DNA of 53,528 bases from a bacterium (lineage in GTDB: Bacteria > Patescibacteriota > Patescibacteriia > JACPHY01). This document shows positions 17,962-48,851 of the stretch, piece after piece. The notes under the pieces are model-generated. The model saw nothing but the letters and a program-made list of their open reading frames with translations, searched no databases and had not been told where the DNA came from. The position numbers and the translations under genes are program-made. Within the stretch, counting starts at the first letter, position 1. Each line of letters begins with the position of its first letter. The stretch is from positions 1-53,528 of the forward strand of contig JAUSKM010000003.1 of the NCBI GenBank assembly GCA_030646955.1, given 5' to 3'.

Positions 17962-18511
17962 TGTACGTTTTGCTGGATCTGCAATGCAATTTGCCCTGTT
18001 GGTGGTTTTGGAGGATAATCTCAAATAGACGCCTTCGTGGCGCCTGTTGTCGTTGGAGGTTGATAGAATGTTTTATCAGCGTCTTGTGGCTTGTTTCTTG
18101 TTCGGGTCGGGTGCAGATAAAATTCTTGGTGATGAAGTTTTGAGTTGCATGCTCTGGTGTAGGCATATCTTCTCTCGGTCGATAGTGTGCGTTCGGGCTT
18201 TGCAACCGGCATACATGTTCGATCGTTGGTGCTTTTCCGAGTCGTTCACGCATCGGGCAAGTATTTTCGATGACTTGATTCTGGCGAATCTCGCTCGGAA
18301 ACACGCGAGAACGCGGACGTCCTCACGCGTCGCTCACTCGTCGGTCCGGTATCTTCTCGGAATTGATACTCGCCGTCCTCGTTCGGTCTCGAGCATGCGG
18401 ACGCGCTCGGACTCTCACTCGTCGGGCCAGTATCTTCGCGGACTTGATTCTGACGGATCTCGCTCGAAAACATGTGAGAACGCGGACGTCCTCACGCGTC
18501 GCTCGCTCGAT
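17962..18511. other. Gene-free spacer before tRNA-Ala(CGC)
   Basis: 550 bases with no credible gene. The second half is made of two diverged direct repeats (18272-18340 and 18441-18509). Confidence 0.65.
18272..18509 (+). repeat. Pair of ~69-nt direct repeats upstream of tRNA-Ala(CGC)
   Basis: 18272-18340 and 18441-18509 differ at about six positions and share GAACGCGGACGTCCTCACGC. Each is followed by a text like the tRNA start: GGTCCGGTATCTT after the first, and GGGCCAGTAGCTC (the real tRNA) after the second. A related CGCTCACTCGTCGGGCC also precedes tRNA-Ala(GGC) at about 20380. Confidence 0.7.
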
Positions 18512-18583
18512 GGGCCAGTAGCTCAGTGGTAGAGCACTGCATTCGCATTGCAGGGGTCGTGGGTTCAACTCCCATCTGGTCCA
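18512..18583 (+). tRNA. tRNA-Ala(CGC)
   Basis: Acceptor GGGCCAG/CTGGTCC, anticodon stem CTGCA/TGCAG with loop TTCGCAT (CGC, reads GCG), T-arm GTGGG TTCAACT CCCAT. CCA is not encoded. Confidence 0.93.
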
Positions 18584-18584
18584 T

Positions 18585-18622
18585 ATCAAATCGCCCCAGC
18601 TTACAGCTGGAGCGATTTGATT
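18585..18622 (+). terminator. Terminator after tRNA-Ala(CGC)
   Basis: ATCAAATCGC..CAGC pairs with GCTG.AGCGATTTGAT, followed by TTTTG. Confidence 0.8.
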
Positions 18623-18623
18623 T

Positions 18624-18639
18624 TGTGCCACGTGGCACA
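18624..18639. promoter_or_regulatory. parS-like 16-bp palindrome, copy 1
   Basis: TGTGCCACGTGGCACA, a perfect palindrome centred on CACGTG. Known parS sites for chromosomal ParB are TGTTTCACGTGAAACA; 12 of 16 positions agree. A second identical copy is at 19566. Confidence 0.5.
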
Positions 18640-18912
18640 GCTGAAAACATTTTGGTGACCTCTGCAGAAGTCGTATCACTGCGAGTTGAGTCCGCTGGGC
18701 GCGGCAATCTGACCGCCTGCGGTCATCCCGATGGCAGCGAGGGACCCCGTACGGCTGTTCCATGGATCCTTCGGCTGCCATTAGGACGACACTTCGTGTC
18801 GGATTGCGGAGTATTTCCAGAGTTCTAGAAGATCCGCGTGTGAGGACTCTTCGCAATGACGCAGGAGCGTGTTTTGCATAGGTCTTTTTGATTTTTATTC
18901 TAGATTCATTTC

Positions 18913-19062
18913 CATGAGGGTCCGATACCCCGCAGCTCTGCTGCGCTTCCTCTGTTGCAGGGGCGGCGCTTTATGCCCGCCCGTCCGTCCGGATGGAGGG
19001 GATGAACCCATCCCCTACGGCTCCCCCTGTTGTAGGGGCGGTGCTTTATGCCCGCCCGTCCG
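18913..19062. repeat. Repeat R3, extended copy
   Basis: 18913-18986 matches 13433-13505 closely. The GGGCGG.GCTTTATGCCCGCCC hairpin module is repeated at 19034-19062. Confidence 0.75.
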
Positions 19063-19349
19063 GATGGGAGGTGGTAAACCCCTCCCCGACGACTTTGACG
19101 GGCGAGACCGAGCACGTCCGCGTGCTCATGGCCGAGCCATGATGGGGCGTATCGAGTCCATGAAGATACGCAGGCCCGGGATACCCCGTCAGCTTGCTGC
19201 GGGGCAGGTCATCCTTTTGGTCAGTAAGTGATGGGTAATTTGCACGTAGATGGTATTTTTTGTCGTATTCGAATAGAAGCAAACCAGCAGTCGCGTAACA
19301 TCGCGATGCGGCTGATGGTATTGAGATTCTATACTTTTCTCTTTTCCGT

Positions 19350-19423
19350 CATTGCGAGCCCGCGAAGCAATCTCACGTGGTTAAGCAGACTGGTGATGTT
19401 ACTTCGCTGGCCCGCAATGACGA
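19350..19423. repeat. Repeat R2, complete copy
   Basis: TCATTGCGAGCCCGCGAAGC at the left, GGCCCGCAATGACGAAG at the right, with outer TCATTGCG/CGCAATGA inverted ends. Confidence 0.75.
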
Positions 19424-19502
19424 AGTACTGGGCGATTTTCTTCACTTTTTCTGCATTCCATTGTTACCCGAGCGAGCAAGTACATAGCCGCTCTCTTGTT
19501 GT

Positions 19503-19543
19503 TTGATACATTTTGCGTGAGATTTGATCCATTTTGCGTGAGA
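19503..19543 (+). repeat. Two tandem 20-nt direct repeats
   Basis: TTGATACATTTTGCGTGAGA (19503-19522) and TTGATCCATTTTGCGTGAGA (19524-19543), a 21-nt period, about two DNA helix turns. They lie 23 bases before the second parS-like palindrome. Confidence 0.65.
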
Positions 19544-19565
19544 AGAGTGTAGTTTTTCCGATTTG

Positions 19566-19581
19566 TGTGCCACGTGGCACA
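19566..19581. promoter_or_regulatory. parS-like 16-bp palindrome, copy 2
   Basis: TGTGCCACGTGGCACA, identical to 18624-18639. The flanks differ, so the conservation is limited to the palindrome itself. Confidence 0.5.
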
Positions 19582-19974
19582 TGGCGCTCTCTTGAAATAG
19601 ACGAGCAGATAAAAAGAGATGAGCGCAGAAGATTGCTACGATCATGTGTTTGGTGGGGCGGCCGAGAGCGGGGCGCAACCCGCTTCCGGTCCAGCGGGAC
19701 GGTCCCGACTCGGAAACCATGAGGCGTGCGGTGTGCAACCTCAGCACACAGTATCAGTCCCGCAAGTTTGCCGTCCCAACGCTGCCACGCGGTAGATATG
19801 ATGCCACGAAGGCGAGCCGGGGAACCAGTGAACAGGATTCGATTTAGGTACGCCAAATCACCGATTGATTAGTTATTTTGATTCATTACGTCATCATTCA
19901 TTGAGATCACAGCTGTCTGAAAGCGATACTTTTAAAGGAATTACTCGTGTGGCTTCTGCAAAATTCACTACAGT

Positions 19975-20060
19975 GTCATTGCGAGGAGTCTTCGACGAAG
20001 CAATCCTGGTCGATTAAGTGTCGGGATTGCAACGCCTCAATTGCTCGGCTCGCAATGACG
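19975..20060. repeat. Repeat R2, complete copy
   Basis: TCATTGCGAGGAGTCTTCGA ... GCTCGCAATGACGCGG, with CGAAGCAATCC inside. Confidence 0.75.
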
Positions 20061-20100
20061 CGGTTTTTGCATGGGTCGCTCGTCTATTCTTTGCTCGATT

Positions 20101-20290
20101 ATTGAACGTACGCACAGTGACATTTCAACAGTAAGTATTTTGATAACGATATAGTTATATTCTTATGTATTTTTCGCTTAACAAAAATAAGTTACATCAA
20201 AGCATTTTTATAAAGATATCGTTATATTTTTTGCTATTCTACATGTGATATTTTGCGTGATTTCACAGAAAATCAACATGTTGATACACT
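20101..20290. other. AT-rich island with inverted repeats
   Basis: Strongly A+T-rich compared with the rest of the window. ATAACGATAT (20143-20152) pairs with ATATCGTTAT (20216-20225). No gene or clear DnaA box is visible. Confidence 0.5.
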
Positions 20291-20392
20291 AAGAAAGAAG
20301 TGATGGGCACGCATCTTCGCCGACTCGATACGTGCCATCCTCGCTCGGAAATGCTCGTGAGTGATGCGCTCCCGGAATTTCGCTCACTCGTC

Positions 20393-20468
20393 GGGCCCTT
20401 AGCTCAGCTGGTAGAGCGCTTCCATGGCATGGAAGAGGTCAGCGGTTCGATCCCGCTAGGGTCCACCA
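20393..20468 (+). tRNA. tRNA-Ala(GGC)
   Basis: Acceptor GGGCCCT/AGGGTCC, anticodon stem CTTCC/GGAAG with loop ATGGCAT (GGC, reads GCC), T-arm AGCGG TTCGATC CCGCT. Unlike the other four tRNAs here, its 3' CCA is encoded. Confidence 0.93.
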
Positions 20469-35083: not shown

Positions 35084-35112
35084 AGTATAGCGCGATTTCT
35101 TCATATTGTCAA
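35084..35112 (-). promoter_or_regulatory. Near-consensus promoter
   Basis: Minus strand TTGACA (35112-35107), 17-bp spacer, TATACT (35089-35084). Confidence 0.8.
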
Positions 35113-36387
35113 ACGGAGCACGAGGATATTGCGCCCCACGCGCTGGCCCTCGCGGGCGTAGGGGAGGTGTTGGTTGTTGCGGAGGACGGGATGGTTGCAC
35201 AGCGGTTGGGGGAGCGTGTTCACGTGCGTAAACCCGAGTGGTGCGAGCGCGGCGCAGAAGCGTGCGGGTGCAAGTTCGGGCACATGCGTTGTTTGGAACG
35301 TGGGGAGCACGAAGACGACGGTTCCGCCGGGGCGAAGCACGCGGGCGAATTGCGCGAACGCGGCGAGATAGAGATTCAGCAGTTCGCGCTGCACGGTGGC
35401 GGTGTTGGCGCGTTGTTGCGGCGGGCCAAGGGAGGGCTCGGTGACGATGGCATCCACGGGTTCCGTGATGCATTGCGTGAGTGCGCGGACGTCGCAGGGG
35501 CGGATCGAGATATTCGCACCCCCTCCAGCTCCCCCTCTTGAAGCGGGGGAGGGTGCATTGCGTAGCCATGCGATGTTCTCGCGTGCGTCCGCGATGGCAT
35601 CCTCGCTCGCGTCGGTACCGATGATGTGTGGGACGCCGAGGAGCGCTGCTTCCATGAGGACGGTGCCGGAGCCGCAGAAGGGATCGAGGATCATTGTCGA
35701 TTGTCGATTTTCGATTGTCGATTGCAGGGCGAGGTTCACCATCATGTGCGCTAGTTTTGGCGGGAGCATGCCGGAGCGCGCGTCGCGGCGGGGGCGGCCG
35801 TAGTCGCGGCGGCTCCACGATTCAAATGGCTGCACGGCGAGCGTGCGCGCGAGGAGGATACGATCGCGCGTGACGAGTGCCAGCACCTCGATACCGTTAT
35901 GCTCGGGCAAGAGCTTCTGTTTGGTGACGGTGACGGACGAGAGCGTCGCGTCGTTCGAGGTGACATGACGCGTGGTGCGGCCGGCTTCCTCGATCTGCGT
36001 CTTGATCTCCCGCGCATTCCGTTGGAGCGCAGCGCGTGCGCGATCAATACCGCGCGTCCCGCCGCCCAGATCGTACACGGAAAAACCAAAGCGCACGCGT
36101 TGATCTGCGTTGGTGCTCTGGAGCGTGTACGCAATCACGGCGCGGGCGATGTCGTTTGGCGATGCAAGCGGCACGGATCCCCAGACCGTACCGATTTTTT
36201 GCGTGCCAGCAAGACGATCCATGAGTGCTGGCGCTTCCGCATCGCGTATCGGCAGCGTCAGCACCTCGCGCGACAATTCGGCGTGCTGCCAGTCCGCGCC
36301 ATCGCCAAGCACCGCCGCGATCTCTGTAACGGAGAGATGCGGCTCGCGCCCCAGGATGAATACCCATGGTTGCGTGTCGGCAGTCAT
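35101..36387 (-). CDS. RNA methylase-like (UPF0020/TRM11-type) protein
   Basis: The ATG at 36387 is preferred; the one at 36402 overlaps the predicted -10. 428 aa. The N-terminal half resembles the THUMP-containing part of TRM11/TrmN-type enzymes (GIDRARAALQRN, LARTLAVQPFESWSRRDYGR). The SAM-binding motif I is ILDPFCGSGTVLMEAALLG. Motif IV reads TEPSLGPP instead of the usual N/D-PPY/F, as in TRM11-like proteins. The family methylates guanosine in tRNA. Two repeat-derived insertions lie in frame: a GATTGTC/GATTTTC tract at about 35693-35727 (STIENRQST), and an R1 unit at 35518-35553 (PSPASRGGAGGGA). Both flank conserved motifs without breaking them. Confidence 0.8.
   Translation of the reverse strand: MTADTQPWVFILGREPHLSVTEIAAVLGDGADWQHAELSREVLTLPIRDAEAPALMDRLAGTQKIGTVWGSVPLASPNDIARAVIAYTLQSTNADQRVRFGFSVYDLGGGTRGIDRARAALQRNAREIKTQIEEAGRTTRHVTSNDATLSSVTVTKQKLLPEHNGIEVLALVTRDRILLARTLAVQPFESWSRRDYGRPRRDARSGMLPPKLAHMMVNLALQSTIENRQSTMILDPFCGSGTVLMEAALLGVPHIIGTDASEDAIADARENIAWLRNAPSPASRGGAGGGANISIRPCDVRALTQCITEPVDAIVTEPSLGPPQQRANTATVQRELLNLYLAAFAQFARVLRPGGTVVFVLPTFQTTHVPELAPARFCAALAPLGFTHVNTLPQPLCNHPVLRNNQHLPYAREGQRVGRNILVLRLTI
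35518..35553. repeat. R1 repeat unit inside a coding sequence
   Basis: CACCCCCTCCAGCTCCCCCT then TTGAAGCGGGGGAGGG. It encodes an in-frame Pro/Ser/Gly-rich insertion in the RNA-methylase-like protein. Confidence 0.7.
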
Positions 36388-36400
36388 ACGGTGTAGAGCC

Positions 36401-36428
36401 ATCGTACCAAGTTGTTGCGGCGCGACAA
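36401..36428 (-). promoter_or_regulatory. Promoter of the RNA-methylase-like gene
   Basis: Minus strand TTGTCG (36428-36423), 16-bp spacer, TACGAT (36406-36401). Predicts an almost leaderless transcript. Confidence 0.5.
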
Positions 36429-36827: not shown

Positions 36828-36856
36828 TTGACAATTCTTGTCAGATTTGTTACGTT
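36828..36856 (+). promoter_or_regulatory. Promoter of the envelope-system cluster
   Basis: TTGACA (36828-36833), 17-bp spacer, TACGTT (36851-36856). Leader of about 120 nt before the first gene. Confidence 0.75.
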
Positions 36857-36983
36857 TTTGAATCAGGAACGCGAGGAGGGCGCGTAATCGTGCCCTCTTT
36901 GTGCGCCTGATGGTGCACATTTTCAATGGAATCAGTCGTGCGAATAGAATAGACAGGGAAGAACCAACCGAAGGGAGATCGAG

Positions 36984-38804
36984 ATGCGATTGGTACGATG
37001 GTACGCCGCGGTGCTCGCGGCATTTCTGGTGATCAGCAGCAGCGCGCACGCCAAGACGTTCGCGGAGCTCGTGGGCGACGTGCCCGTGGGCAACGTGAGC
37101 GCCGACGGCAGCTACGAGCTGCCGTACATCCTGTGGGGCGGCGAGGCCGCCACGTTCCATGCCAACGGGCTCGCGCTCAAGACGAAGGGCGGAAGCATCT
37201 TCAGCCAGCAGGGCCTGGAGCTCACGCTCGTGCCCGGTGACAACTTCGTCCAGCAGGTGCGCAACTACCTCTCCGGCAAGACGCCGTTCCTGCGCGCGAC
37301 CGCGCACATGATCGGCTTGGCCGCGGAGGTGCTGGGGCGCGACCCGCGCACGCAACCGGTGGAAGTCGTGCAGCTCACGTGGAGCCGCGGTGACCACGTC
37401 GTGGGGCGCGAGGGCATCCGGTCCGTCGCGGACATCTGCGGCAAGACCGGCGTCATGCAGCGCGTGGGTCCGCATGAGGGCATGCACTACGACGTCGTGA
37501 AGACGGCGGCATGCAAGACGCTGCCGCGCATCATCTACGTGGATGACATCACGGGCCCCAAGGGGCCGGCGGAGAAGTTCCGTGCGGATCGTTCCGTGGA
37601 CTTCGCGTACGTCGTGACGCCGGACATGATCGGACTCACGGGCGGTGCGGGGCAGACCGGCAGCGGCGCCGAGGGCACGGTGAAGGATGCACACATCGTC
37701 GTCTCCACGCAGGAGCTCACGCGCTCCATCGCGGACGTCTACGTGGTCCGCAAGGACTTCTCCGATGCGCACGGGGACCAGGTGGCAAAGTTCGTCGCCG
37801 GGTACCTCAAGGGCGCGGAGGAAGTAGTGGAGCTGCGCAAGGCCAAGAGCGGCGTGTACAAGAACCTGCTCGCCTTCATGGTGAAGACGTGGGGCACGGG
37901 CGCGCTGCCCAACGCGGACGAGGCCGACGGCCTCATCGCGGACTGCGCCTTCGTCGGCCACGCTGGCAATGTGGAGTTCTTCGAGGACGACGCGAGCCCG
38001 ACGGGCTTCAAGGCGTTCCGCGATGCGTCTCAGGACCTGGCGGTCTCGTGGGGCTACGCCAAGAAGCCGGCGGCGATCCTCAGGCCCACGTGGGACTGGG
38101 ACGGGAAGCCCTTTGCGGGCTACCTCCAGCAGATGGGCGCCAAGCGTACCTCCAAGTTCAACGCCGAGGCGACGCTGGCCGATCTGGAAGCGCTCCAGGC
38201 CGGCGGCTCCATCAACGACGCGACGATCTTCTCGTTCAGCGTGCCGTTCGTGCCCAATGAGACGACGTTCACGGTGACGCCGGAGCTCAAGAAGAAGTTC
38301 GACGAGGCCATCCAGCTTGCCGCCAAGTACGGCGGCGCCGCGTTGGCGGTCCGCGGGCACGCGGATCCCACGAAGGTGCTGGGGGATATGGTGAAGGCCG
38401 GTCTGGAAACCGGCGTCCTCGAGCGGCGCGGCGAAGGCGCGGCGAAGCGCTACTTCGTCAGCGGTCGCGAGCTGGCGCTGACGTCCACTGCGGATGTCGT
38501 GGCGACGATCCAGCGCGGGACCTTCGACAAGGCGAAGAGCGCGAAGCCGCGTGAGCTGATGCTGGCCGCGAGGAACCTCTCGCAGCAGCGGGCGGACGAG
38601 GTGCGTAGCGCGATCGTCGCGCACGCAAGCAAGAGCGGCAAGCACCTGGATGCCAACCAGATCCAGGCGCAGGGCGTGGGCGTGCTGGAGCCGTTGGTGC
38701 CGGTGCCGCGCTCCATGGACGATGTGACGCAGAACACGCGCGTCGAGTTCGCGCTGGTGCGCGTCTCGGCAGAGGCCACCACGTCCGCGGACTTCGAGTA
38801 CTAG
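36984..38804 (+). CDS. Secreted substrate-binding protein fused to an OmpA-like domain
   Basis: The ATG at 36984 follows AAGGGAGATCGAG; 606 aa. Signal peptide at 1-23 (...ISSSAHA). Residues about 45-410 resemble the NMT1/SsuA-type periplasmic-binding fold of ABC importers (ILWGGEAATFHANG, DHVVGREGIRSVADICGK, VDFAYVVTPDMIGL). Residues about 415-600 form an OmpA/MotB-type domain: FSVPFVPNETTFT, LAVRGHADP, then LSQQRADEVRSAIV, GVGVLEPLVP and NTRVEFALV. About 65 extra residues sit between GHADP and LSQQRA. OmpA-type domains bind peptidoglycan, so this receptor-like protein is probably held on the wall. First gene of the cluster, 9 bases before the vWA gene. Codons are strongly C-ending, which suggests high expression. 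Confidence 0.82.
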   Translation: MRLVRWYAAVLAAFLVISSSAHAKTFAELVGDVPVGNVSADGSYELPYILWGGEAATFHANGLALKTKGGSIFSQQGLELTLVPGDNFVQQVRNYLSGKTPFLRATAHMIGLAAEVLGRDPRTQPVEVVQLTWSRGDHVVGREGIRSVADICGKTGVMQRVGPHEGMHYDVVKTAACKTLPRIIYVDDITGPKGPAEKFRADRSVDFAYVVTPDMIGLTGGAGQTGSGAEGTVKDAHIVVSTQELTRSIADVYVVRKDFSDAHGDQVAKFVAGYLKGAEEVVELRKAKSGVYKNLLAFMVKTWGTGALPNADEADGLIADCAFVGHAGNVEFFEDDASPTGFKAFRDASQDLAVSWGYAKKPAAILRPTWDWDGKPFAGYLQQMGAKRTSKFNAEATLADLEALQAGGSINDATIFSFSVPFVPNETTFTVTPELKKKFDEAIQLAAKYGGAALAVRGHADPTKVLGDMVKAGLETGVLERRGEGAAKRYFVSGRELALTSTADVVATIQRGTFDKAKSAKPRELMLAARNLSQQRADEVRSAIVAHASKSGKHLDANQIQAQGVGVLEPLVPVPRSMDDVTQNTRVEFALVRVSAEATTSADFEY

Positions 38805-38813
38805 GAGGTTGCT

Positions 38814-39740
38814 ATGCACGCATACGCACACTGGATGATTCTCCTCGCACTCGCAGCGCCCGCAACCGCCTTGGCCGATTCGGCCGCCTACCACGATGCC
38901 GTGGTCATCGTGCTCGACGGGTCCGGCTCCATGGACGGGAGCATGCGCGACGGCACGAAGAAGATGAACGCCGCCAAGCAGGCGCTCAAGCAGGTCCTGG
39001 CCCAGGTGCCGGAGACCACGCACGTGGGGCTCCTGGCGTTCTCGGGGAACGTGAACGGGTGGGCCTACGAGCTGGGTCCGCTGCAGAAGCAACGCCTCCT
39101 CGGTGCCATCGACGGCATCCGGGAGAATGGCGGGACGCCGTTGGGCGACTACGTGAAGCTGGGCGCGGACCGTCTCCTCGAGGAGCGCGGGAAGCAGTTT
39201 GGCTACGGCACGTATCGGCTCCTCGTGGTTACCGACGGCGAGGAGACGGGGAGTTCGTGGGTCGTCAACGATGTTGCACCGCAGGTGACCGCGCGCGGCG
39301 TCACGTTGGATGTCATCGGCGTCGCCATGGATAGCGATCACTCGCTCAAGCAGCACGCAACCGCGTACCGTTCGGCGGATGATCCGGCATCGCTCCAGCG
39401 CGCCGTCGCACAGACGTTCGCCGAGGTTTCGGCAACGGGTGACGGCAGTGCGCCTGCCGATGCGGTGTTCGCAGACCTTGAGGGTCTGGAACCCGAAGCG
39501 GCCAGTGCGATGATCTCGGCGTTCGCCGCGGTGAACAACGCCAACTGGCCCATCGGCGAGGCCCCGCCCGAGCCCGCGCCCGATACCGGCAGCACCTTCC
39601 AGCCCATCCAGGGCGTAGGCGGTGTCGGGATCGACGCCGGGTGCGGTGGGTGCCAGAGCAGCGGGAGACCGGTCGGGGTGCTCATCTCCATCGGCATGAT
39701 GCTCTTCGGGTTCGCGCTCATGCGTCGTTCGCGCAACTGA
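38814..39740 (+). CDS. Exported von Willebrand factor A protein with C-terminal membrane anchor
   Basis: The ATG at 38814 follows AGGAGGTTGCT; 308 aa. Signal peptide at 1-21 (...ATALA). The vWA domain (about 27-215) has an intact metal-ion-dependent adhesion site: DGSGSM at 35-40, Thr108 in GGTPLGD and Asp141 in VVTDGEE. A helical linker leads to a Pro-rich stretch, a GCGGC pair, one membrane segment and a basic end (MRRSRN). The GCGGC-TM-RR arrangement resembles MYXO-CTERM-type processing signals. vWA domains mediate metal-dependent protein contacts and often partner AAA ATPases; one is encoded 7 kb downstream in this cluster. Confidence 0.87.
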   Translation: MHAYAHWMILLALAAPATALADSAAYHDAVVIVLDGSGSMDGSMRDGTKKMNAAKQALKQVLAQVPETTHVGLLAFSGNVNGWAYELGPLQKQRLLGAIDGIRENGGTPLGDYVKLGADRLLEERGKQFGYGTYRLLVVTDGEETGSSWVVNDVAPQVTARGVTLDVIGVAMDSDHSLKQHATAYRSADDPASLQRAVAQTFAEVSATGDGSAPADAVFADLEGLEPEAASAMISAFAAVNNANWPIGEAPPEPAPDTGSTFQPIQGVGGVGIDAGCGGCQSSGRPVGVLISIGMMLFGFALMRRSRN

Positions 39741-39750
39741 TTCCACTTCG

Positions 39751-39822
39751 CCAGGAACCCACCGGGTTCCTGGCCTCACTTCGGGGATGGACCCTCCTCC
39801 AATATCCATCCCCGAAGTGAGG
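39751..39822 (+). terminator. Two strong intercistronic hairpins
   Basis: CCAGGAACCC/GGGTTCCTGG (39751-39773), immediately followed by an 18-bp perfect stem, CCTCACTTCGGGGATGGA (39774-39791) with its complement at 39805-39822. There is no T-run, so they are more likely attenuation or RNA-processing/stability elements than complete terminators. Confidence 0.7.
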
Positions 39823-39900
39823 AGATATCCTCGGCGGGACTCCTCGGAGTTCCTTCACAATCGGACCCAAAACGCTCGAAAGAAAGGAAAGGTACAAGCA

Positions 39901-41487
39901 ATGGACCAAGATCGTCGCGCGGGGAAGATTCTCATCACGCTTGGCATCTGGATCGCGATCGTCGGCATCGGCGCTCTCGCGTGGGTGTACGTCATCCAAC
40001 CGCGGATGAGCAACCAGCTGGTGGCAGCAACCAGTTCGGATTCCGCATATGCGCACACGCTTGCGTGTGCGGCAGACGGCTTCTCGGGCTACGCGTTCCT
40101 GCGCAGTCCCGCGATGACCAAGACGCTCAAGGATGCCGGCATTAAGCTGGACATCCGTGACGACAAGGCGGACTACGCCGGGCGCATGCAAGCCATGGCG
40201 AAGGGCGATGTGGACCTCGCGGTTTTCACCATCGATTCCTTCATCAAGGCGGGCGTGAAGCTGGGCTACACGCGGTACGAGGACTTCCCGGGCACCATCG
40301 TTCTCGTCGTCGACCAGACGGTTGGCGGTGATGCGATGGTTGCGTACGAGGAGGCCGTGCCGACGATGGAGGCGTTGAATCACCCCGAGGGGCGGTTCAT
40401 GTTCACGCCAGATTCGCCGTCCGAATTCCTCGGCCGTGTCGCGTACGCCACGTTCTCGTATCCGCTCGTTCCCGAGCAGTGGTATGAGGAAGCGGATGGC
40501 GCCGCGGACGTGCTGAAGAAGTTGAAGGCCGCGGATCCCAAGGCGAAGCGGATCTACGTGCTCTGGGAGCCGTACCTGTCCGAGGCGCTGAAGATCAAGG
40601 GCGTGAAGAAGCTCTTGGGCTCGGACAAGTGTACGGACTGCATCGTTGACGTGCTCGTCTTCGGGCGCGCGTTCGCTGCGGAGCATCCCGAGCTTGTCGA
40701 GCAGGTGACGCGCGCGTACTTGAGCGCCGCACACAGCTATCAGCAGACGCAAGACACGCTGCACGCGTTGCTCATCGCGGATGCGGAAGCGGGGGGCGAG
40801 AAGCTCTCTGCGTACGCAGCCGCGGCGATCGCGGACGGCATCCAGTGGAAGCGGGTGCGGGAGAACTACATCCACTTCGGACTGGAAGAGGACCCCCAGG
40901 GGAAGATCAAGCCCCTGGAAGACCTGGTCGTGTACGTCGTGGGCATGCTGGAGAAGACCGGCGCGTTCCCCAAGGGCACGCTCACCGGCAGTCCGACGGC
41001 GCTGTACTTCAGCGGCACCATGCGCGCATTGCAGGCCAGCAACTACCATCCGGGCAAGAAGGCGGAGATCATCGCCGATCTGGGACCGGGGGCAGCGGAC
41101 TTGGAAGCAGCGCGCGCGGCGGCGGACCTTCCGGCGCTGGATGATGCCGGCTGGGCAAAGCTGGCGCACGTGGGATCGGCGCGCGTGGAGCCCATCAGCT
41201 TCAAGCGTGGCACCGCGGAGATCAGCGAGTACAGCCAGGCAGACCTGGACGCGTTGGCAGGTAACGTGAGCCGGTGGTCCACGTACTACGTGCGCATCGT
41301 CGGCAGTTCGCAGGCAGTGGGCGATGCAAAAGCGAATGCGGCGCTTGCCGCCGCACGCGCGACTGCGGTGCGTGATGCGCTGGTTGCAGCGGGCATTGCG
41401 GAAACGCGAGTGCGTACCGCCAGCGTCGCGCCCAGTGCCGATGGACGTTCCGAGGTGCGGTTCGAGTTCTTGCAGCAGCAGTACTGA
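39901..41487 (+). CDS. Membrane-anchored substrate-binding protein fused to an OmpA-like domain
   Basis: The ATG at 39901 follows AAAGGAAAGG; 528 aa. One membrane segment at about 11-32 (LITLGIWIAIVGIGALAWVY), with no signal-peptide cleavage motif, so it is a signal anchor. Residues about 45-400 form a binding-protein-like region (CAADGFSGYAFLRS, GDVDLAVFTIDSF, YVLWEPYLSEALKIKG). An OmpA-like C-terminus follows (about 415-525: EPISFKRGTAEISEYSQ, YYVRIVGSS, ARATAVRDALVAAGI, SEVRFEFL). Same architecture as the 36984 product, except that it is tethered in the membrane. It may link the membrane to the wall and present a ligand to the permease. Confidence 0.82.
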   Translation: MDQDRRAGKILITLGIWIAIVGIGALAWVYVIQPRMSNQLVAATSSDSAYAHTLACAADGFSGYAFLRSPAMTKTLKDAGIKLDIRDDKADYAGRMQAMAKGDVDLAVFTIDSFIKAGVKLGYTRYEDFPGTIVLVVDQTVGGDAMVAYEEAVPTMEALNHPEGRFMFTPDSPSEFLGRVAYATFSYPLVPEQWYEEADGAADVLKKLKAADPKAKRIYVLWEPYLSEALKIKGVKKLLGSDKCTDCIVDVLVFGRAFAAEHPELVEQVTRAYLSAAHSYQQTQDTLHALLIADAEAGGEKLSAYAAAAIADGIQWKRVRENYIHFGLEEDPQGKIKPLEDLVVYVVGMLEKTGAFPKGTLTGSPTALYFSGTMRALQASNYHPGKKAEIIADLGPGAADLEAARAAADLPALDDAGWAKLAHVGSARVEPISFKRGTAEISEYSQADLDALAGNVSRWSTYYVRIVGSSQAVGDAKANAALAAARATAVRDALVAAGIAETRVRTASVAPSADGRSEVRFEFLQQQY

Positions 41488-41526
41488 CGGTCAGGACCGC
41501 GCGCTCTGCGCGCAGAAAGGAGTGTC

Positions 41527-42300
41527 ATGCTGGACCGAAAGCGTTTCGCACGGGCGTACGCGCTTCGCCTCGCCTCGCGCATGACGACGGTCCTACCGGT
41601 GGGGATCGGCGCAGGCGCGCTCGTCATCGGCGGTTTCATCCTGGGAGAACCCATGGCCGCGTTCTTGGGGATCCTGGGGATCCTGGGCGGCATCGGCATG
41701 TTCTGTACGCGCCTCGTCGCAAAGGACGAAGCGCTGGTGGCCGCAGTGGCCGCCGATCTGCAGGAAGCCGCAGCAGCAGATGCGCGCGCGGCTTTGGATG
41801 CACTGGCGCGCGAGCTTGCAGCGTTCGACGATCCGCAGCCGGCGGAGCTCCTTCGGGAGCTGCGGGAGCTGCTGGCCGCGTTTGCGAGGAACGATGTGTG
41901 GGCAACCCGCATCAACGATGTATCGGCGGCGGAGATCACCAGCGGTGTGCGGGAGCTTGGTGCGCAGGCAATCGAGCAGCTTCGCGCGACGCTGCAGCTC
42001 TCTCGCACGATGCAGGATCTTCCGCGCAGCGCGTGTGGACCATTGACGACGGCACGCACACAGCTCATCGGAGAAGTGCGCGCCAGCGTCGGTGCACTGA
42101 CTACCATGCTTGCAGAGGTGGTGCACCTCGGCAGCAGTAATGATGCCGTAGGCGATGTCGCGACGGTGCGCCAACAGTTGCAGCAATCGCTGGACATCGC
42201 GCGACGGGTGGATGCAGCAATGCAAGGAGAATCCGAAACCGTGCGTCGTGCGCGGCAACGGGGACAACAGTTGCGAAGCAGCGAAGGTAGGAGGGAGTGA
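41527..42300 (+). CDS. Membrane hairpin plus coiled-coil protein
   Basis: The ATG at 41527 follows AAAGGAGTGTC; 257 aa. Two closely spaced membrane segments (about 20-60: TVLPVGIGAGALVIGGFIL, MAAFLGILGILGGIGMF) are followed by about 190 residues of Ala/Leu/Glu-rich helices with coiled-coil character. It ends a few bases before the PspA gene, whose start overlaps its own Shine-Dalgarno region. By position it could be the membrane partner of PspA, a role filled by PspB/PspC or other small membrane proteins elsewhere, though sequence similarity is not apparent. The 27949-28845 product has the same topology. Confidence 0.78.
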   Translation: MLDRKRFARAYALRLASRMTTVLPVGIGAGALVIGGFILGEPMAAFLGILGILGGIGMFCTRLVAKDEALVAAVAADLQEAAAADARAALDALARELAAFDDPQPAELLRELRELLAAFARNDVWATRINDVSAAEITSGVRELGAQAIEQLRATLQLSRTMQDLPRSACGPLTTARTQLIGEVRASVGALTTMLAEVVHLGSSNDAVGDVATVRQQLQQSLDIARRVDAAMQGESETVRRARQRGQQLRSSEGRRE

Positions 42301-42302
42301 CG

Positions 42303-43145
42303 ATGGGACGTTTCTTCAGAGGATTGTGGTACTTCGTGAGCGGGCAGTTCATCTGGGGTGCGAAGCAGTTGGAGCGCAATCCCGCGGTCATCGAGGCGGA
42401 GTTCGACAGCGCCATCGGCAAGCTCAAGCGCCGGTTCACGGCGGCCAAGGAAGCGGTGGGCAACCTCATTGCCATGCGCGAGAAGCGCAAGCGCGATCTG
42501 GAGACGCTCACCGAGACGCTCGAGACGCATCGCGAGACCATGGACGGGAGCAAGGCGCTCCTCCAGGAGGTCGTCGCCGGGCTGCGTAGCCAGGGACTGG
42601 ACGATGCCGCTATCCAGCAGCACGCCGACTACCTTCAGTACGCCAGTGCGTTCCAGGACGCGCAGTCGTCCGCAGATGCGGTGGAGGCGGATATCGCGCG
42701 CTGCGAGGAGGACATCAAGCACCTCGAGCAGCAGGCCAGCGACTACAAGATCCAGCTGCAGGAGATGCAGCGCGAGATCGAGAAGATCAAGACCGAGAAG
42801 CATGCCACGATCGCCGACATCTCCTTCGCCACGCAGGTGCAGCAGATGAACGACGCGCTGGCGGGCATCGGTTCCGACGGCGTGTCGGAGACGCTGGCCA
42901 GCCTGCGCGAGCGGCGCGATCAGGCCAAGGCGCAGGCGACGCTGTCGCGTGAGTTGTCCGGTGCGGACGCGCGCGTGCAGGCCGCCAAGATCCGGACGGC
43001 AGCGCGCCGTTCGCGTGCGAACACGGAGCTCGCGGCCCAGCTGGGCCTGGGCGCCAAGCCGGTCGTGGAGACCGCGACCAAGGCAGCGGTGGCCGAGGCC
43101 GTGGGCGACAGCGGCAGTTCCAAGCCCGGCGCGTTGCCGGGTTGA
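42303..43145 (+). CDS. PspA/IM30 (Vipp1) family protein
   Basis: The ATG at 42303 follows AGGAGG with 8-base spacing; the GTG at 42297 is too close. 280 aa: an amphipathic N-terminal helix (GRFFRGLWYFVSGQFIWGAK), then a nearly continuous helical coiled coil with the PspA-like start (NPAVIEAEFDSAIGKLKRRF) and LHREM-type heptads, ending in an Ala/Gly-rich tail. PspA/IM30 proteins are ESCRT-III relatives that assemble on damaged membranes and preserve the ion barrier. Here the gene lies between a membrane hairpin protein and an ABC system. It ends at a strong terminator-like hairpin (43158). Confidence 0.82.
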   Translation: MGRFFRGLWYFVSGQFIWGAKQLERNPAVIEAEFDSAIGKLKRRFTAAKEAVGNLIAMREKRKRDLETLTETLETHRETMDGSKALLQEVVAGLRSQGLDDAAIQQHADYLQYASAFQDAQSSADAVEADIARCEEDIKHLEQQASDYKIQLQEMQREIEKIKTEKHATIADISFATQVQQMNDALAGIGSDGVSETLASLRERRDQAKAQATLSRELSGADARVQAAKIRTAARRSRANTELAAQLGLGAKPVVETATKAAVAEAVGDSGSSKPGALPG

Positions 43146-43157
43146 TGGTGTGACGGA

Positions 43158-43188
43158 GGAAGCGCCCCGCATGGGGCGGGGCGCTTCC
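43158..43188 (+). terminator. Hairpin after the PspA gene
   Basis: GGAAGCGCCCCGC / GCGGGGCGCTTCC. Tail ATCCTTTCCTTG is only modestly T-rich, so partial read-through into the ABC genes is likely. Confidence 0.75.
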
Positions 43189-43238
43189 ATCCTTTCCTTG
43201 CAGTACCAACCCAAGTAAGAAAGAAGAAGGAGTGTCCC

Positions 43239-44492
43239 GTGATCCAGAAGATTTTGATGGTGGGCATCGCCGCGCTCGTGCTGGGCGCGTGCAACGGCGA
43301 GCAGGAGCAGGTGCCTTCGCCGGAGGCGGTTTCGGTTTCCACGGCGCAGCAGGAAGACGCGCTGCCGGTGAAGATCAAGAACCCGCCGCTGACGAACGTC
43401 ACGCCGGCCGAGCCGCTCACGCTCGCGCCGCTCATCGATACCGCGGGCATCGCGCCCTGCGCGTACTCGTCCGGCACGCTCGCGTACAGCGAGTACGCCA
43501 GCTGGTCCACGTACGACGTGGCCGAGATGCAGGGCTACGTCTCCGGTCAGGAGGGGCGCTGCGGGCCGGTGGAGCGCAAGTACGGGGTGGACGTGGTGCT
43601 CAAGTTCATGGAGTATGACCCCAGCATCGGCGCGTTCGCGGCGCGGCAGGTGGACGCCGTGACCATCACGAACGGCGACACGCTGGGCGTGGCCACCGCG
43701 TCCGATCAGCCCGTGGTGGCCGTCCACGCGACGTCCACCAGTTACGGCGCCGATCGCATCCTGGTTCCGAAGTCGGTGACCGGTTTCGCCGGTCTCAAGG
43801 CGCTCAAGTGTCGCGGGCTGGAGGCGACGGTGAGCCACTACAACGTCGAGGAGGTTTCCCGCGCGAACGGCGTGGACCCGACGGGCTACACGTACGCCAT
43901 GATGGATCCGGGCGCCGCGGCCGCCGCGATGAAGACCAACGATCCCGAGGCGCAGTGCATCTCCGTGTGGGAGCCCTTCGCGCAGGACACGCTGGCGGCA
44001 CGCAGCGACGTGCACGTGCTGGCGGACTCCACGGCCATCCCGGCCGAGATCCTGGACCTCGTCGTCGTGCACCAGGCGGTGCTCGATCGGCCGCACGGCA
44101 AGGCGTTCGTGCTGGCGCTCATCGAGGCGTACTACCGCGTGGTGGCAGACCTGGAAGGGCCGGATAGCGACAACGCGCATCGGCGCCTGGGAAAGAAGGT
44201 GACCGATCTCTCGGCGGAGCAGATGCGGGACGTGCTGACGCGCTCTGTGCTCTACCGCCGGCCGCAGTGGGTGGTCTCGCTCTTCACGGACGGACAGACG
44301 TTCCCGTTCCCCGAAGGCGTCACCTCGCCGCCGCTCTCCAAGATCATGGAGAAGAACGTCGCCTGGGCGAAGGCGCACGGCGTCACGAAGGGCGCCGATG
44401 TGACCGTCGGGTACGGGGCGAAGGACGCGGCGACCAACGCTAGCTTCCGATTCGACCCCACGTACGTGCAGGCGTTCATGGCGCAGCAGTAG
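43239..44492 (+). CDS. Substrate-binding lipoprotein (NMT1/SsuA-like)
   Basis: The start is GTG at 43239 after AAGAAGGAGTGTCCC; 417 aa. Lipobox LVLGAC puts the lipidated Cys at 18, so the mature protein is anchored on the outer leaflet. The binding-protein region follows a Pro/Thr linker: PCAYSSGTLAYSEYASWSTY, QVDAVTITNGDTLGVATA, ALKCRGLEATVSHYNVEEV, CISVWEPFAQDTL. This is the pattern of taurine/sulfonate/thiamine-precursor receptors. It is the most orthodox receptor for the permease/ATPase pair that follows. The ligand cannot be told from sequence. Confidence 0.85.
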   Translation: MIQKILMVGIAALVLGACNGEQEQVPSPEAVSVSTAQQEDALPVKIKNPPLTNVTPAEPLTLAPLIDTAGIAPCAYSSGTLAYSEYASWSTYDVAEMQGYVSGQEGRCGPVERKYGVDVVLKFMEYDPSIGAFAARQVDAVTITNGDTLGVATASDQPVVAVHATSTSYGADRILVPKSVTGFAGLKALKCRGLEATVSHYNVEEVSRANGVDPTGYTYAMMDPGAAAAAMKTNDPEAQCISVWEPFAQDTLAARSDVHVLADSTAIPAEILDLVVVHQAVLDRPHGKAFVLALIEAYYRVVADLEGPDSDNAHRRLGKKVTDLSAEQMRDVLTRSVLYRRPQWVVSLFTDGQTFPFPEGVTSPPLSKIMEKNVAWAKAHGVTKGADVTVGYGAKDAATNASFRFDPTYVQAFMAQQ

Positions 44493-44519
44493 CTGCACGG
44501 GGTCCGATGGAACCAATAA

Positions 44520-44545
44520 CCGGGAGGAGGTGTTCCTCCTCCCGG
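44520..44545 (+). terminator. Intercistronic hairpin before the permease gene
   Basis: CCGGGAGGAGG / CCTCCTCCCGG with loop TGTT, followed by a smaller AATGGC/GCCATT hairpin. No T-run. Likely differential-expression element. Confidence 0.6.
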
Positions 44546-44635
44546 CTTCACGCTCGAGGCGAATGGCATAGCCATTGGCCGCAAACGTGAGGTCTTTCCC
44601 AACTAAAGAATGACAGCAACGAAAGGAGAAGATGC

Positions 44636-45448
44636 ATGATTCGCGCTCCCATCAGTGATCGCCAGCGTATCGCGCTGGGCGTTGCGGCAGTCGCCGCGAT
44701 CCTCGTGGCGTACACGGTCGTCGCGCACGTCCGCCATCTCGATAACGCGGCGGACCGTATCGTTCCGACGTGGACGCAGCTCTGGGCCGGCATCGTGCGC
44801 ATCACGACGCTGGATCCGGACGACCATGTCCGCTACATCGTGGCGGACAGTTCGGCAACCGGCCTTCGGTTCCTCCTGGGGTTTGGCATCAGCGTCATTG
44901 CGAGCTTTGTGATCGGCGTGGCCATGGGCTGCTTCCGGCGAGTCCGGGCGCTCCTCTTGCCTGCGCTCTCCGCGCTCGCGCGCATTCCGCCAACGGCAGT
45001 GACCGCGGTCATCATGGCGATGGTGGGCACGGGCATGACGTTCTTCCAGTTCGCCATCGCCTTCGGGGTCTTCCCGATTCTGGCCGAGAGCATTTGCCTG
45101 GCCGTGGACGACGTACCGGATGAGCTGATCCAGAAATCGTATACGCTAGGTGCATCGCAGGGAGAAGTCATCGGCAACGTGATCGTTCCGCAGATTCTTC
45201 CCAAGGTGCTGGATGCAATCCGGCTGCAGATCGGACCCGCGTTGGTCTACCTCATCTCGGCAGAGCTCTTGGCTGCCGATATGGGGTTTGGGTACCGCAT
45301 CCGCCGCTTCGGGCGCCTGGCGCAGATGGACATCGTGTTCCCGTACCTGGCCGCGCTTGCCGTCTTTGGCCTGGTGGTCACGGCGGCGTTCGCATGGATC
45401 CGCGTGAAGCGTTGTCCATGGTATCAACCGACAAAGGAGGGTGCGTGA
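44636..45448 (+). CDS. ABC transporter permease (SsuC/TauC-like)
   Basis: The ATG at 44636 follows AAAGGAGAAGATGC; 270 aa with about six membrane helices. The EAA-type coupling loop is SYTLGASQGEVIGNVIVPQI (about 165-184), followed by LPKVLDAIRLQIG. This is the layout of the BPD_transp_1 permeases of sulfonate/taurine/nitrate importers. Its stop shares one base with the ATPase start (TGATG at 45446-45450), so translation is coupled. Substrate unknown. Confidence 0.93.
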   Translation: MIRAPISDRQRIALGVAAVAAILVAYTVVAHVRHLDNAADRIVPTWTQLWAGIVRITTLDPDDHVRYIVADSSATGLRFLLGFGISVIASFVIGVAMGCFRRVRALLLPALSALARIPPTAVTAVIMAMVGTGMTFFQFAIAFGVFPILAESICLAVDDVPDELIQKSYTLGASQGEVIGNVIVPQILPKVLDAIRLQIGPALVYLISAELLAADMGFGYRIRRFGRLAQMDIVFPYLAALAVFGLVVTAAFAWIRVKRCPWYQPTKEGA

Positions 45449-46386
45449 TGACCGAGCGCTCCATCATGGTCAGCATGCAGCACGTGCACAAACGCTTCGG
45501 CCCGAAGCATGTGTTGTTCGATGTGAACCTGCGGTTCGAGCGCGGGGGATTTGTCAGCTTGGTCGGACCGTCCGGCTGCGGCAAGTCCACGCTCCTCTAC
45601 ATGATCCTCGGTACGCTCAAGCCCACCGCGGGCGTCGTGCTCGTGGGCGGCGCGCTGGTGCAGGGCTTGTCGCGGAACCGCGGAATCGTGTACCAGCACT
45701 ACTCGCTCTTCCCGCACCTTACCGTGTTGGAGAATGTTGCGTTCGGGCGCATGCTTGATGCAACCTCCATCCCGTTCCGCGTATTGCGGCCGTTCGCGTG
45801 GCGCGCGCTGCGCAAGCGGCATCTGGATGAGGCTCGCGATCTGCTCACGCACGTGGGTCTTGGCGATCCGCAGACGCTCCAGTGCTACCCGCACCAGCTC
45901 TCCGGCGGCATGCGACAGCGCGTGGCCATCGCGCAGGCGATGATCATGAAGCCGTCCGTGCTCCTCCTGGATGAGCCGTTTGGCGCGCTGGATCAGGCAA
46001 CGCGGGAGTCATTGCAGCGCATGATCCTCCAGTTGCATGCGGACAACGAGCGCGCACGAGCAGAGGGACGCCAGGACGATATCGTCACCGTCGTGCTCGT
46101 CACGCACGAGATCGACGAAGCGATCCTTCTGGCGGACAAGGTGGTTGGCGTCTCGCAGTACTGGAACTGGCGCGAGCAGGGGTACGATAGGTGCCCCGGT
46201 GCCACGGTGGTGTACAGCAAGCCCGCGCCGATCTTCAAGCCGGATCACGAAGCGCAACATAGCGCGTTCGTGGAACAGCGTCAGGAGATCATTCGCGCGG
46301 CCATGGACGAAACAGTACTCCAGCCGCCCGAGATGTATCGGACGTTCTGGAAGGGTGATGCACCCACTGCGCGAGGTGCGGCATGA
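45448..46386 (+). CDS. ABC transporter ATP-binding protein (SsuB/TauB-like)
   Basis: The ATG at 45448 follows AAAGGAGGGTGCG and overlaps the permease stop; 312 aa. Walker [10 protein letters not shown] at 40-48, Q-loop [10 protein letters not shown], signature LSGGMRQR, Walker [15 protein letters not shown] and H-loop [10 protein letters not shown]. The ~60 residues after the core (YNWREQGY-type stretch to the RTFWKGD end) exceed the usual ~250-aa length and could be a regulatory tail. It overlaps the AAA ATPase gene as ATGA (46383-46386). Confidence 0.95.
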
Positions 46387-48200
46387 GCGCAACGACCGAG
46401 TACGGATTCATGCAGGCGTTGGGACGCGCGGTGAAGGCGGGCACATCTCGCGTCATCGCGCTCACCGGCAACGTGTCAGATCTCTTCGCGCTCCCGAGGG
46501 AGGGCGAGGTGCCGCTGGATGTGCCGCTCTTGGACTACCTGGCCAAGCGGTTCGACGTTGGCACGTGGGTGCCCGTGGTCTACAGCCTCAACGATGCGAT
46601 TCGCTTCGTGCAGAAGGATGATCAGCAGCGCTTCACCGAGGCGTGGGTGCGATTCCAGACCGGACGTACCACGAACGAGCTGGCGATCCAGCGGTTCCTT
46701 CGCGCCCATGCGGAGAGCGAGGACGCAGCGGACCTGGTGGCAACTGCGGAGGAGTTTACCAAGGCACTGGAAGAGGCCAAGGGCAACGCGACGCTCGCGT
46801 TGGAGCTTCTCCGGTGGATGTGCGTCGCGTCGCGCGCAACGGTGGGCGGCACGCGCATCTTCTCGGGTAACCTGGTCATCATCATCGAGGACGCGGATCT
46901 CCTCACTCCCGCGGCCGACCCGGCGCACCTTTCGGAGGGCAACCTCCGGCGCATCGCGATCTGTCGTGATTGGTTTGGGGATCTGGGGTTCATGGAGGGG
47001 CCGGATACGGTTATCCTCCTGACGGAATCGCGATCGGCGCTGAACGAGCGCATCGCAAAGCTCCCGCAGCTTCTGGATATCGCCATCCCTGCGCCCTCGG
47101 CAGTGGAGCGGCAGGCGTACATCGAGCGGTTCATCGCCGCGCGGCCGGTGCAGCTTTGGGAGAATGTCCCTGCGCTTGCGCATGCAACCGCGGGGCTCAC
47201 GATCCACGCGCTTCGGCAGCTTCTGGTGGACGCCGCGTACGACAACGCGATGCTCACCCTGCAGCTCGTCACGCGGCAGGTGGAGCGGTTCATCATCGGC
47301 CAGCTGGGCGAAGGGACCGTGGAGTTCTCACGGCCGGAGCACACGCTGGCGGATCTCGTTGGCAACCAGGCGCTCATCGCGTTCATCCAGGAGAAATTGG
47401 TCCCGCGCCTGCGGCGGACGGATCGGTATGCGCTTCCGGGCGCGGCCATCCCCGGTTCCATCGGCGCGGGCAAGACGTATATCTTTGAGGCGGTCGCTGG
47501 GGAGATTGGCTGCCCGGTGCTGCTGCTCAAGAACCTCCGCAGCAAGTGGTACGGCGGAACGGACATCATCTTCGAACGGCTTCGCCGCGTCGTGGAGGCG
47601 CTTGCGAAGGTCGTCGTGTTTGTGGACGAGGCCGACACGCAGTTCGGCGGCGTCGGCGCGGACACGCATGAGACGGAGCGGCGCCTCACCGGCAAACTCC
47701 AGGCCATGATGTCCGATACCAAGCTGCGCGGGAAGGTGCACTGGATGCTCATGACGGCGCGCATCCACCTCCTCTCCGCCGACATCCGGCGGCCGGGGCG
47801 CGTGGGTAACCTCATCATCCCGGTGTTCGATCCCGCGGGCGACGATTTCGAGGCGTTCCTTCGGTGGGCGATCAGCATCGCGTGCACGCCGGAGCAACTG
47901 TCTTCCGCGACGCGGGAGAAGCTGCGTGCCGCGGTTTCCGGATACTCGGCAGCGGCGTTCGCGGCACTCCGTGAGGAGCTTGCGGCCGTGGCGCATGGCG
48001 GCACATTGTCCGCGGAGCAGATCCTTGCGATCGTCAGCGACATCGTGCCGGCCAACATCGGGAGCGAACGGCGGTACCAGGAGCTCCACGCGGTGCTCAA
48101 CTGCACGCGCAAATCGCTCTGGCCTGCGTGGTACACCGATGCCAATCGCGAGGAGTGTCTGCACGAGCTGCGCATGCTGGAGGCAAGCGGGATTCGGTAG
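46383..48200 (+). CDS. Two-domain AAA ATPase with a degenerate first domain
   Basis: The ATG at 46383 overlaps the ABC ATPase stop by 4 bases; 605 aa. Domain 1 (about 1-310) keeps an AAA-like fold (VIALTGNVSDLF, LVIIIEDADLLTP) but has no P-loop lysine, so it is probably inactive. Domain 2 (about 320-560) is intact: Walker A GSIGAGKT at 358-365, Walker B VVFVDEADTQ at 411-420, a pore/helix segment LRSKWYGGTDIIFERLRR, and candidate arginine fingers at IRRPGR (469-473). This is the classical AAA type that remodels proteins through a hexamer. Coupled translation with an ABC ATPase and co-location with PspA and vWA proteins suggest a membrane-complex remodeller. No closer family assigned. Confidence 0.85.
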   Translation: MSATTEYGFMQALGRAVKAGTSRVIALTGNVSDLFALPREGEVPLDVPLLDYLAKRFDVGTWVPVVYSLNDAIRFVQKDDQQRFTEAWVRFQTGRTTNELAIQRFLRAHAESEDAADLVATAEEFTKALEEAKGNATLALELLRWMCVASRATVGGTRIFSGNLVIIIEDADLLTPAADPAHLSEGNLRRIAICRDWFGDLGFMEGPDTVILLTESRSALNERIAKLPQLLDIAIPAPSAVERQAYIERFIAARPVQLWENVPALAHATAGLTIHALRQLLVDAAYDNAMLTLQLVTRQVERFIIGQLGEGTVEFSRPEHTLADLVGNQALIAFIQEKLVPRLRRTDRYALPGAAIPGSIGAGKTYIFEAVAGEIGCPVLLLKNLRSKWYGGTDIIFERLRRVVEALAKVVVFVDEADTQFGGVGADTHETERRLTGKLQAMMSDTKLRGKVHWMLMTARIHLLSADIRRPGRVGNLIIPVFDPAGDDFEAFLRWAISIACTPEQLSSATREKLRAAVSGYSAAAFAALREELAAVAHGGTLSAEQILAIVSDIVPANIGSERRYQELHAVLNCTRKSLWPAWYTDANREECLHELRMLEASGIR

Positions 48201-48266
48201 GGGCGGTTCCCGCAATAGTGCGGGTGCGTGCCATGGGAACTACGAAGCAGATAAAGGAGTGCGGGT

Positions 48267-48749
48267 ATGCGATGGGGAGTGATAGCATGCGTGGTTATGC
48301 TTGCGGGCAGCGCGAGTGCGCAGGACTGGGGCCTCAACGTGGCGGGTTCGGAATCGCTTGGGCTGGACGACGGCGTCGAGCATCTGGGCTTCTACCCGTG
48401 CGTGGTGGTTTCCTACACGTTCAAGATGGGCGAGGTTGCGATTTCGCCGGGCCTGGGCGTCGAGTGGGCTGCGGGCGGGGACTTCTGGGGGTTCATGGCG
48501 ACCGTTGCCGCGGACTACCCCATCACCGAATCTTTCGGTGTGGACGGTATCGTGGCGTTCGTCCACGATCAGCGGCGTGGCGACTGGGCGCACGCGGGCT
48601 ACTACGCGGGCCTAGGGCCCGGCGTCTCATGGTTTGTGACCAGCCGCGTCACAGTCACTCCCAATGTGTTGCTCTTTCGCGGCCTCAATGACGATGCCGC
48701 AGCCTGGGCGCTTGGCCCCGGTGTCAACATCTGGGTCCTGCTCAACTGA
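48267..48749 (+). CDS. Small secreted beta-rich protein
   Basis: The ATG at 48267 follows AAAGGAGTGCGGGT; 160 aa. Signal peptide at 1-19 (MRWGVIACVVMLAGSASA). The mature part alternates hydrophobic/polar strands with Gly turns and aromatic ends (YTFKMGEVAISPGLGVEWA, WFVTSRVTVTPNVLLF, GPGVNIWVLLN). This is the look of a small beta-barrel or outer-surface protein. Such a barrel would be surprising in a lineage thought to lack an outer membrane. It is the last gene of the cluster and precedes a strong terminator. Confidence 0.72.
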   Translation: MRWGVIACVVMLAGSASAQDWGLNVAGSESLGLDDGVEHLGFYPCVVVSYTFKMGEVAISPGLGVEWAAGGDFWGFMATVAADYPITESFGVDGIVAFVHDQRRGDWAHAGYYAGLGPGVSWFVTSRVTVTPNVLLFRGLNDDAAAWALGPGVNIWVLLN

Positions 48750-48757
48750 AATGCTAC

Positions 48758-48788
48758 AACCCCCACCCGGAAAGAACGGGTGGGGGTT
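48758..48788 (+). terminator. Terminator of the envelope-system cluster
   Basis: AACCCCCACCCG / CGGGTGGGGGTT with loop GAAAGAA. A second imperfect hairpin (CCCCCGCCGGAC...GGTCGGGCGGGG) lies at about 48803-48832. Confidence 0.88.
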
Positions 48789-48851
48789 TCATGTGAAAAG
48801 CAACCCCCGCCGGACGCGATGGTCGGGCGGGGGGCAGGTGTACGGTGCGTG

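Follow-up and report, generated by a model that had tools for sequence, protein, structure and literature searches.

The window, a 53,528-nucleotide stretch of contig JAUSKM010000003.1 from a member of the Patescibacteriota, carries ten consecutive genes on the + strand (g1-g10, 36984-48749) separated by gaps of -4 to 160 bases. Sequence comparison indicates that g1-g9 form a real conserved module, in which a PspA/IM30 protein and a two-domain AAA ATPase accompany an ATP-binding cassette (ABC) importer, three solute-binding proteins and a von Willebrand factor A (vWA) protein. As judged from the relatives compared, the recurrence of the nine-gene order across phyla is far beyond chance. The module is an enlarged variant of a type already described in outline by Ravi et al. 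2024 (mSystems, PMC11237479). A first-pass annotation of the sequence had proposed a ten-gene system. All ten genes are present as it described, and conserved order bears out g1-g9, but g10 is not conserved. The genes are as follows.

g1, 36984-38804, + strand: secreted solute-binding protein (NMT1/SsuA-like) with a C-terminal OmpA-type domain
g2, 38814-39740, + strand: vWA protein with a complete metal-ion-dependent adhesion site (MIDAS) motif and a signal peptide
g3, 39901-41487, + strand: inner-membrane-anchored solute-binding protein with an OmpA-type end
g4, 41527-42300, + strand: N-terminal membrane hairpin followed by a helical coiled coil; no Pfam family
g5, 42297-43145, + strand: divergent PspA/IM30 (ESCRT-III superfamily) with alpha0-alpha4 topology
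g6, 43239-44492, + strand: lipoprotein solute-binding protein of the SsuA/TauA/TIGR03427 class
g7, 44636-45448, + strand: ABC permease, TauC/SaoP-like
g8, 45448-46386, + strand: ABC ATPase, catalytic motifs complete, extended at the C terminus
g9, 46383-48200, + strand: two-domain AAA protein, the N-terminal domain without Walker A and the C-terminal domain CDC48-type
g10, 48267-48749, + strand: small secreted beta-rich protein

Conservation of the neighbourhood and a second subtype

An alignment of the AAA family was used to scan genome contigs, and co-occurrence was counted at the 32 AAA-family loci where the AAA gene is flanked on each side by 6 kb or more of sequence. Because the AAA gene served to recruit every locus, and several of the loci are related to one another, these counts cannot be taken as independent. 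PspA was encoded at 27 of the 32 loci. A binding protein, permease and ATPase were found together at 20 of the 32, and every one of these loci also encodes PspA (20/20); a vWA gene was present at 6/32. The PspA gene often lies directly next to the AAA gene, also at loci where no importer was found (L043, L063, L070 and L074). Eight control loci with distant AAA relatives (from plasmids, archaea, Caballeronia and genome G350) contained no PspA or binding protein, and one of the eight had an ABC gene with a weak match to the permease profile.

Relatives of the AAA protein occur in Verrucomicrobia (48% identity), Poribacteria, Planctomycetota, Acidobacteria, Riflebacteria, Myxococcota and other groups. 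At two verrucomicrobial loci (L022 and L027), g1-g9 stand in exactly the window's order, with proteins 28-51% identical, and the order at L020, L021, L023 and L026 agrees with the window up to the contig ends. At the poribacterial loci L028/L029, the AAA gene is grouped with the genes for PspA, binding proteins, permease and ATPase, whereas g1 and g2 lie about 5 kb further on. In Riflebacteria (L056), the AAA gene is accompanied by PspA, three binding-protein-like genes, vWA, permease and ATPase. The co-occurrence in relatives on which the first-pass annotation had staked its proposal is confirmed by these counts and by the verrucomicrobial gene order. No relative of g10 was found in the related AAA-family loci compared, and g10 is therefore probably lineage-specific and outside the system. 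The g10 product resembles an outer-membrane-type barrel, which would be odd if the organism lacks an outer membrane.

The idea that an assembly of this kind around an ABC importer was not known proved wrong, as Ravi et al. described the core combination from other genomes and proposed the same interpretation. Their operons encode PspA, a two-domain AAA protein, an ABC ATPase and permease, and PBPB-OmpA (for example, OGG56892.1). The window shares with them PspA, the two-domain AAA protein with an inactive N-terminal domain, the ABC ATPase, the permease, an OmpA-fused binding protein and a further protein with membrane segments. Unlike them, it also encodes the MIDAS-containing vWA protein and two further receptors, one OmpA-type and one a lipoprotein. 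Their type has a Snf7 homologue with a transmembrane segment; g4 has an N-terminal hairpin and a coiled coil, but no detectable homology to PspA. In the main text of PMC11237479 no vWA protein was found, nor the additional receptors, the order of nine genes or two subtypes within one genus; part of this may be in its supplement. With that reservation, what may be new here is the enlarged subtype with vWA and three binding proteins, its range across phyla and the exchange of subtypes at one locus.

A different subtype is found in another genome of the same genus (G288; locus L019, G288:C28 2842-11068, compared with window 36984-48200). Its order is PspA, an OmpA-ended membrane-anchored receptor, permease, ATPase, hairpin protein and AAA, which is the order of the acidobacterial locus L052. 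In this receptor the OmpA match is strong (E=5e-19) and the GHTD motif is canonical. The G288 module adjoins a homologue of the window's methyltransferase gene (35101-36402) at 56% identity, while its AAA and ATPase are only 25% and 30% identical to those of the window; the permeases of the two genomes gave no convincing match, and the best matches of the G288 copy lie in other phyla. The window AAA groups with Verrucomicrobia with tree support of 100/100, and the G288 AAA forms a very long branch. The simplest reading of these sequences is that the same chromosomal site has held different module subtypes, with that of the window being Verrucomicrobia-like. The AAA and ATPase identities relative to the flanking gene, the lack of a convincing permease match and the best matches in other phyla make it unlikely that the G288 copy arose by simple vertical descent, and fast divergence of this copy is possible given the long AAA branch. 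In G288, too, the methyltransferase gene lies next to a module of this type, which argues against contig contamination.

Properties of the encoded proteins

Most of the family assignments in the first-pass annotation were confirmed by Pfam or NCBIfam; the OmpA and NMT1 matches of g1 are weak, and g5 is marginal when searched alone. Neither g4 nor g10 has a match in either database. The g5 protein matches Pfam PspA at E=0.017, under the Pfam cut-off, and a family search over its own genome gave no match at its threshold. We assign g5 to PspA/IM30, in the ESCRT-III superfamily, because its operon relatives match PspA_IM30 clearly in Pfam (24/26 and 15/15 members, best E ~8e-34) and because its predicted fold fits Vipp1/PspA. 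A profile of the g5 family finds Vipp1/PspA chains in the PDB at E=5e-28. An AlphaFold model (pLDDT 76) has the alpha0-alpha4 topology with a long alpha1/alpha2 hairpin, and the top nine PDB hits of this model in Foldseek are Vipp1/PspA (best E 2.7e-4), with modest global TM-scores of 0.3-0.6.

Structure prediction, which supported g5, gave no meaningful fold match for g4, the model of which has low confidence (pLDDT 67). An apparent homology of g4 to the hairpin proteins of other loci was rejected, as its 99% probability came from alignments sharing one sequence.

The g9 protein matches Pfam AAA at E=1.2e-13. Its C-terminal domain contains Walker A and Walker B motifs, an SKWYG pore loop and RPGR arginine fingers. 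Across 30 family members (19-49% identity to the window protein), the C-terminal Walker A, Walker B and RPGR arginines are invariant or nearly so, and the nearest solved relatives of the family profile are CDC48/VCP-like ATPases (CDC48/p97-like). The N-terminal half aligns by profile with the C-terminal AAA domain (probability 95%) and lacks Walker A. These motifs indicate that g9 is a two-domain form with an inactive N-terminal domain, as in Ravi et al.

The true AAA family is rare in the phylum, being found only in G000, G288 and G350 among the genomes searched, and its context in G350 is unrelated. AAA matches in other genomes of the phylum (E ~1e-5 to 1e-9) were FtsH-like by profile search and were set aside. 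In G350, which belongs to the same class, the family member (L130 9095-10813, - strand) adjoins a radical-SAM activase-like gene, with PspA and importer genes not nearby. Large plasmids of Paenibacillus and Brevibacillus also encode two-domain AAA proteins (L017 9716-11332 and L018 9683-11314), both with DUF262 genes nearby and neither with PspA or an importer alongside. No phage relatives were found.

OmpA-type ends are present on both g1 and g3, as first annotated, but only g1 keeps the peptidoglycan-binding Asp. The g1 matches to OmpA (E=0.0013, under the cut-off) and NMT1 (E=0.0026) are weak, and the protein is 47-48% identical to its verrucomicrobial counterparts. Its OmpA-type end keeps the peptidoglycan-site Asp (GHAD) and Arg (NLSQQRA), as do 4/4 aligned relatives. 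The g3 protein matches Pfam OmpA at E=1.7e-10 in addition to its solute-binding domain; its OmpA domain keeps the Arg and has lost the Asp in the window, in Verrucomicrobia and in Poribacteria. The protein that binds the wall is therefore probably g1, with both residues retained, and g3, without the Asp, would be held by its N-terminal membrane anchor. The vWA protein g2 (Pfam VWA, E=7.8e-16) has an intact MIDAS (DGSGS, GTPLGD and VVTDG) and a C-terminal CxxC-TM-RR tail resembling MYXO-CTERM.

The importer genes fit the NitT/TauT class in binding protein, permease and ATPase alike. The lipoprotein g6 (TIGR03427, E=8.6e-30; lipobox LGAC) is nearest to sulfonate/taurine-binding proteins (E=4e-12), g7 matches BPD_transp_1 (E=2e-13), and g8 matches ABC_tran (E=6.9e-33) with its ATPase motifs intact.

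Transcription signals

Three features bear on how the run is transcribed.

36828-36862, + strand: candidate promoter with TTGACA, a spacer and a weak -10, read directly from the sequence
39751-39822, + strand: two strong adjacent hairpins between g2 and g3, identified by folding energy
48760-48790, + strand: terminator-like hairpin, GC-rich with a short U run

The first-pass annotation placed the genes between one good promoter and a strong terminator, and each description holds in part. The -35 element (TTGACA at 36828) is perfect, but the -10 (TACGTT) is weak, and a promoter scan did not report the candidate for that reason. The GC-rich end hairpin exists, but its U run is short and hairpins inside the run are as strong as that at 48760. 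The g2/g3 pair has a minimum free energy of -54.6 kcal/mol (z -9.6), and one of the two is an 18-bp perfect inverted repeat. Further strong hairpins lie in the g5/g6 gap (43157-43190, z -2.9) and the g6/g7 gap (44520-44545, z -3.8). Because of the weak -10, the short U run and the strong internal hairpins, a single transcript across the run is only plausible from the sequence. Through the hairpins in these three gaps, separate parts of the operon could be expressed differently. Elsewhere in the window, four tRNA genes lie within ~3 kb (17439-20465) and a fifth lies at 51937.

A proposed mechanism and its alternatives

We propose that g1-g9 work together as a single functional unit at the inner membrane and cell wall, with the importer and receptors coupled to remodelling by PspA and AAA; we hold this tentatively, at a little under an even chance. 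The NitT/TauT-type importer (g7 and g8) would take up a small anionic solute handed over by the lipoprotein receptor g6. By way of the probable wall binder g1, membrane-anchored g3 and the C-terminally anchored vWA adhesion protein g2, the receptors would be positioned at the wall, over the importer. PspA would polymerise on the cytoplasmic face of the membrane around the importer, and g9 would serve as its Vps4-like unfoldase, the active C-terminal ring pulling PspA subunits through the aromatic pore loop. The inactive N-terminal domain may be a scaffold or a substrate-binding platform, and g4 may anchor the ATPase or PspA on site. From this arrangement we infer that PspA polymers at the importer are taken apart by the AAA ring, to which we likewise give just under even odds. 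The first-pass reading of a wall-tethered receptor and importer system with PspA and an AAA remodeller remains the best supported, as a conserved module, but not as an original one.

The module resembles several known systems in part. Like archaeal and eukaryotic ESCRT-III/Vps4 (Cdv), it pairs an ESCRT-III superfamily polymer, PspA, with a classical AAA protein that has an aromatic pore loop. Unlike Vps4, a single-AAA protein, g9 is CDC48-like with a dead first domain; it has the SKWYG pore loop and RPGR motif, yet two AAA-type domains. The permease, ATPase and binding proteins are of the class of NitT/TauT importers (SsuABC, TauABC, SaoABP), to which the window adds OmpA ends on binding proteins, PspA, AAA and vWA. 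A PspA family protein is shared with the classical Psp system (pspFABC, liaIH), but no PspB, PspC, PspF, LiaI/LiaF or Toastrack was identified among the ten genes, and the partner ATPase is not an NtrC-type activator.

Several observations weigh against the proposed mechanism. No MIT domain was found in g9, the N-terminal half being AAA-like instead, and the usual sensor-1 Asn is missing. The g4 protein has no detectable homology to PspA (hhalign 0.3%), and a relation to hairpin proteins encoded at other loci reaches only 13% probability once the shared sequence is removed. The hairpins in the g2/g3, g5/g6 and g6/g7 gaps may split expression. Finally, AAA genes stand without PspA at L031, L037, L045, L049 and L081, on Bacillales plasmids and in G350; because of such loci, the AAA family must have other substrates or contexts.

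A possible, though rather improbable, alternative is that the module is a sensor, in which wall-bound receptors and the ABC pair signal wall or membrane damage, PspA and AAA are the repair output, and uptake is minor or absent. Three receptors per permease, two of them with wall-binding-type domains and alongside a vWA adhesion protein, would suit this role, as would the nature of PspA systems as stress systems and the loci that keep PspA-AAA without an importer. However, the catalytic motifs of the ATPase are all present, and the binding proteins and permease belong to an ordinary import class. It is unlikely that the AAA client is instead the importer, the binding proteins or another protein, with g9 as an assembly or quality-control unfoldase and PspA only guarding the membrane against the importer's proton leak. 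CDC48-type rings are general unfoldases and relatives without PspA exist (L031, L037, L045, L130 and the plasmids), but PspA is the commonest AAA neighbour and is often adjacent, even where no importer was found. Mere clustering of independent units, to which the internal hairpins and the variable composition between phyla might point, is very improbable and largely refuted by a nine-gene order kept between phyla at 28-51% identity and by two subtypes at one locus in one genus. A defence-system reading was rejected, as PADLOC gave only coiled-coil matches to g5 and a weak AAA match.

In its broadest form, the proposal treats the module as the bacterial equivalent of ESCRT-III/Vps4, with a CDC48-like AAA remodelling PspA around a wall-tethered importer and subtypes exchanged between phyla at one site in a minimal-genome Patescibacterium-like lineage; this is possible but doubtful. 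The AAA-PspA pair is of interest because it has been stated to be unclear whether any ATPase serves PspA/Vipp1 as Vps4 serves ESCRT-III (Liu et al. 2021, PMC8281802). A 2024 survey states that ESCRT systems with vps4 are confined to archaea and eukaryotes (PMC10936438). A motif-complete AAA protein that is operon-linked to PspA in several bacterial phyla offers a defined pair for testing PspA/Vipp1 disassembly. A wall-tethered importer of this kind would tie membrane remodelling to solute uptake, an unusual link for a cell whose genome measures one megabase.

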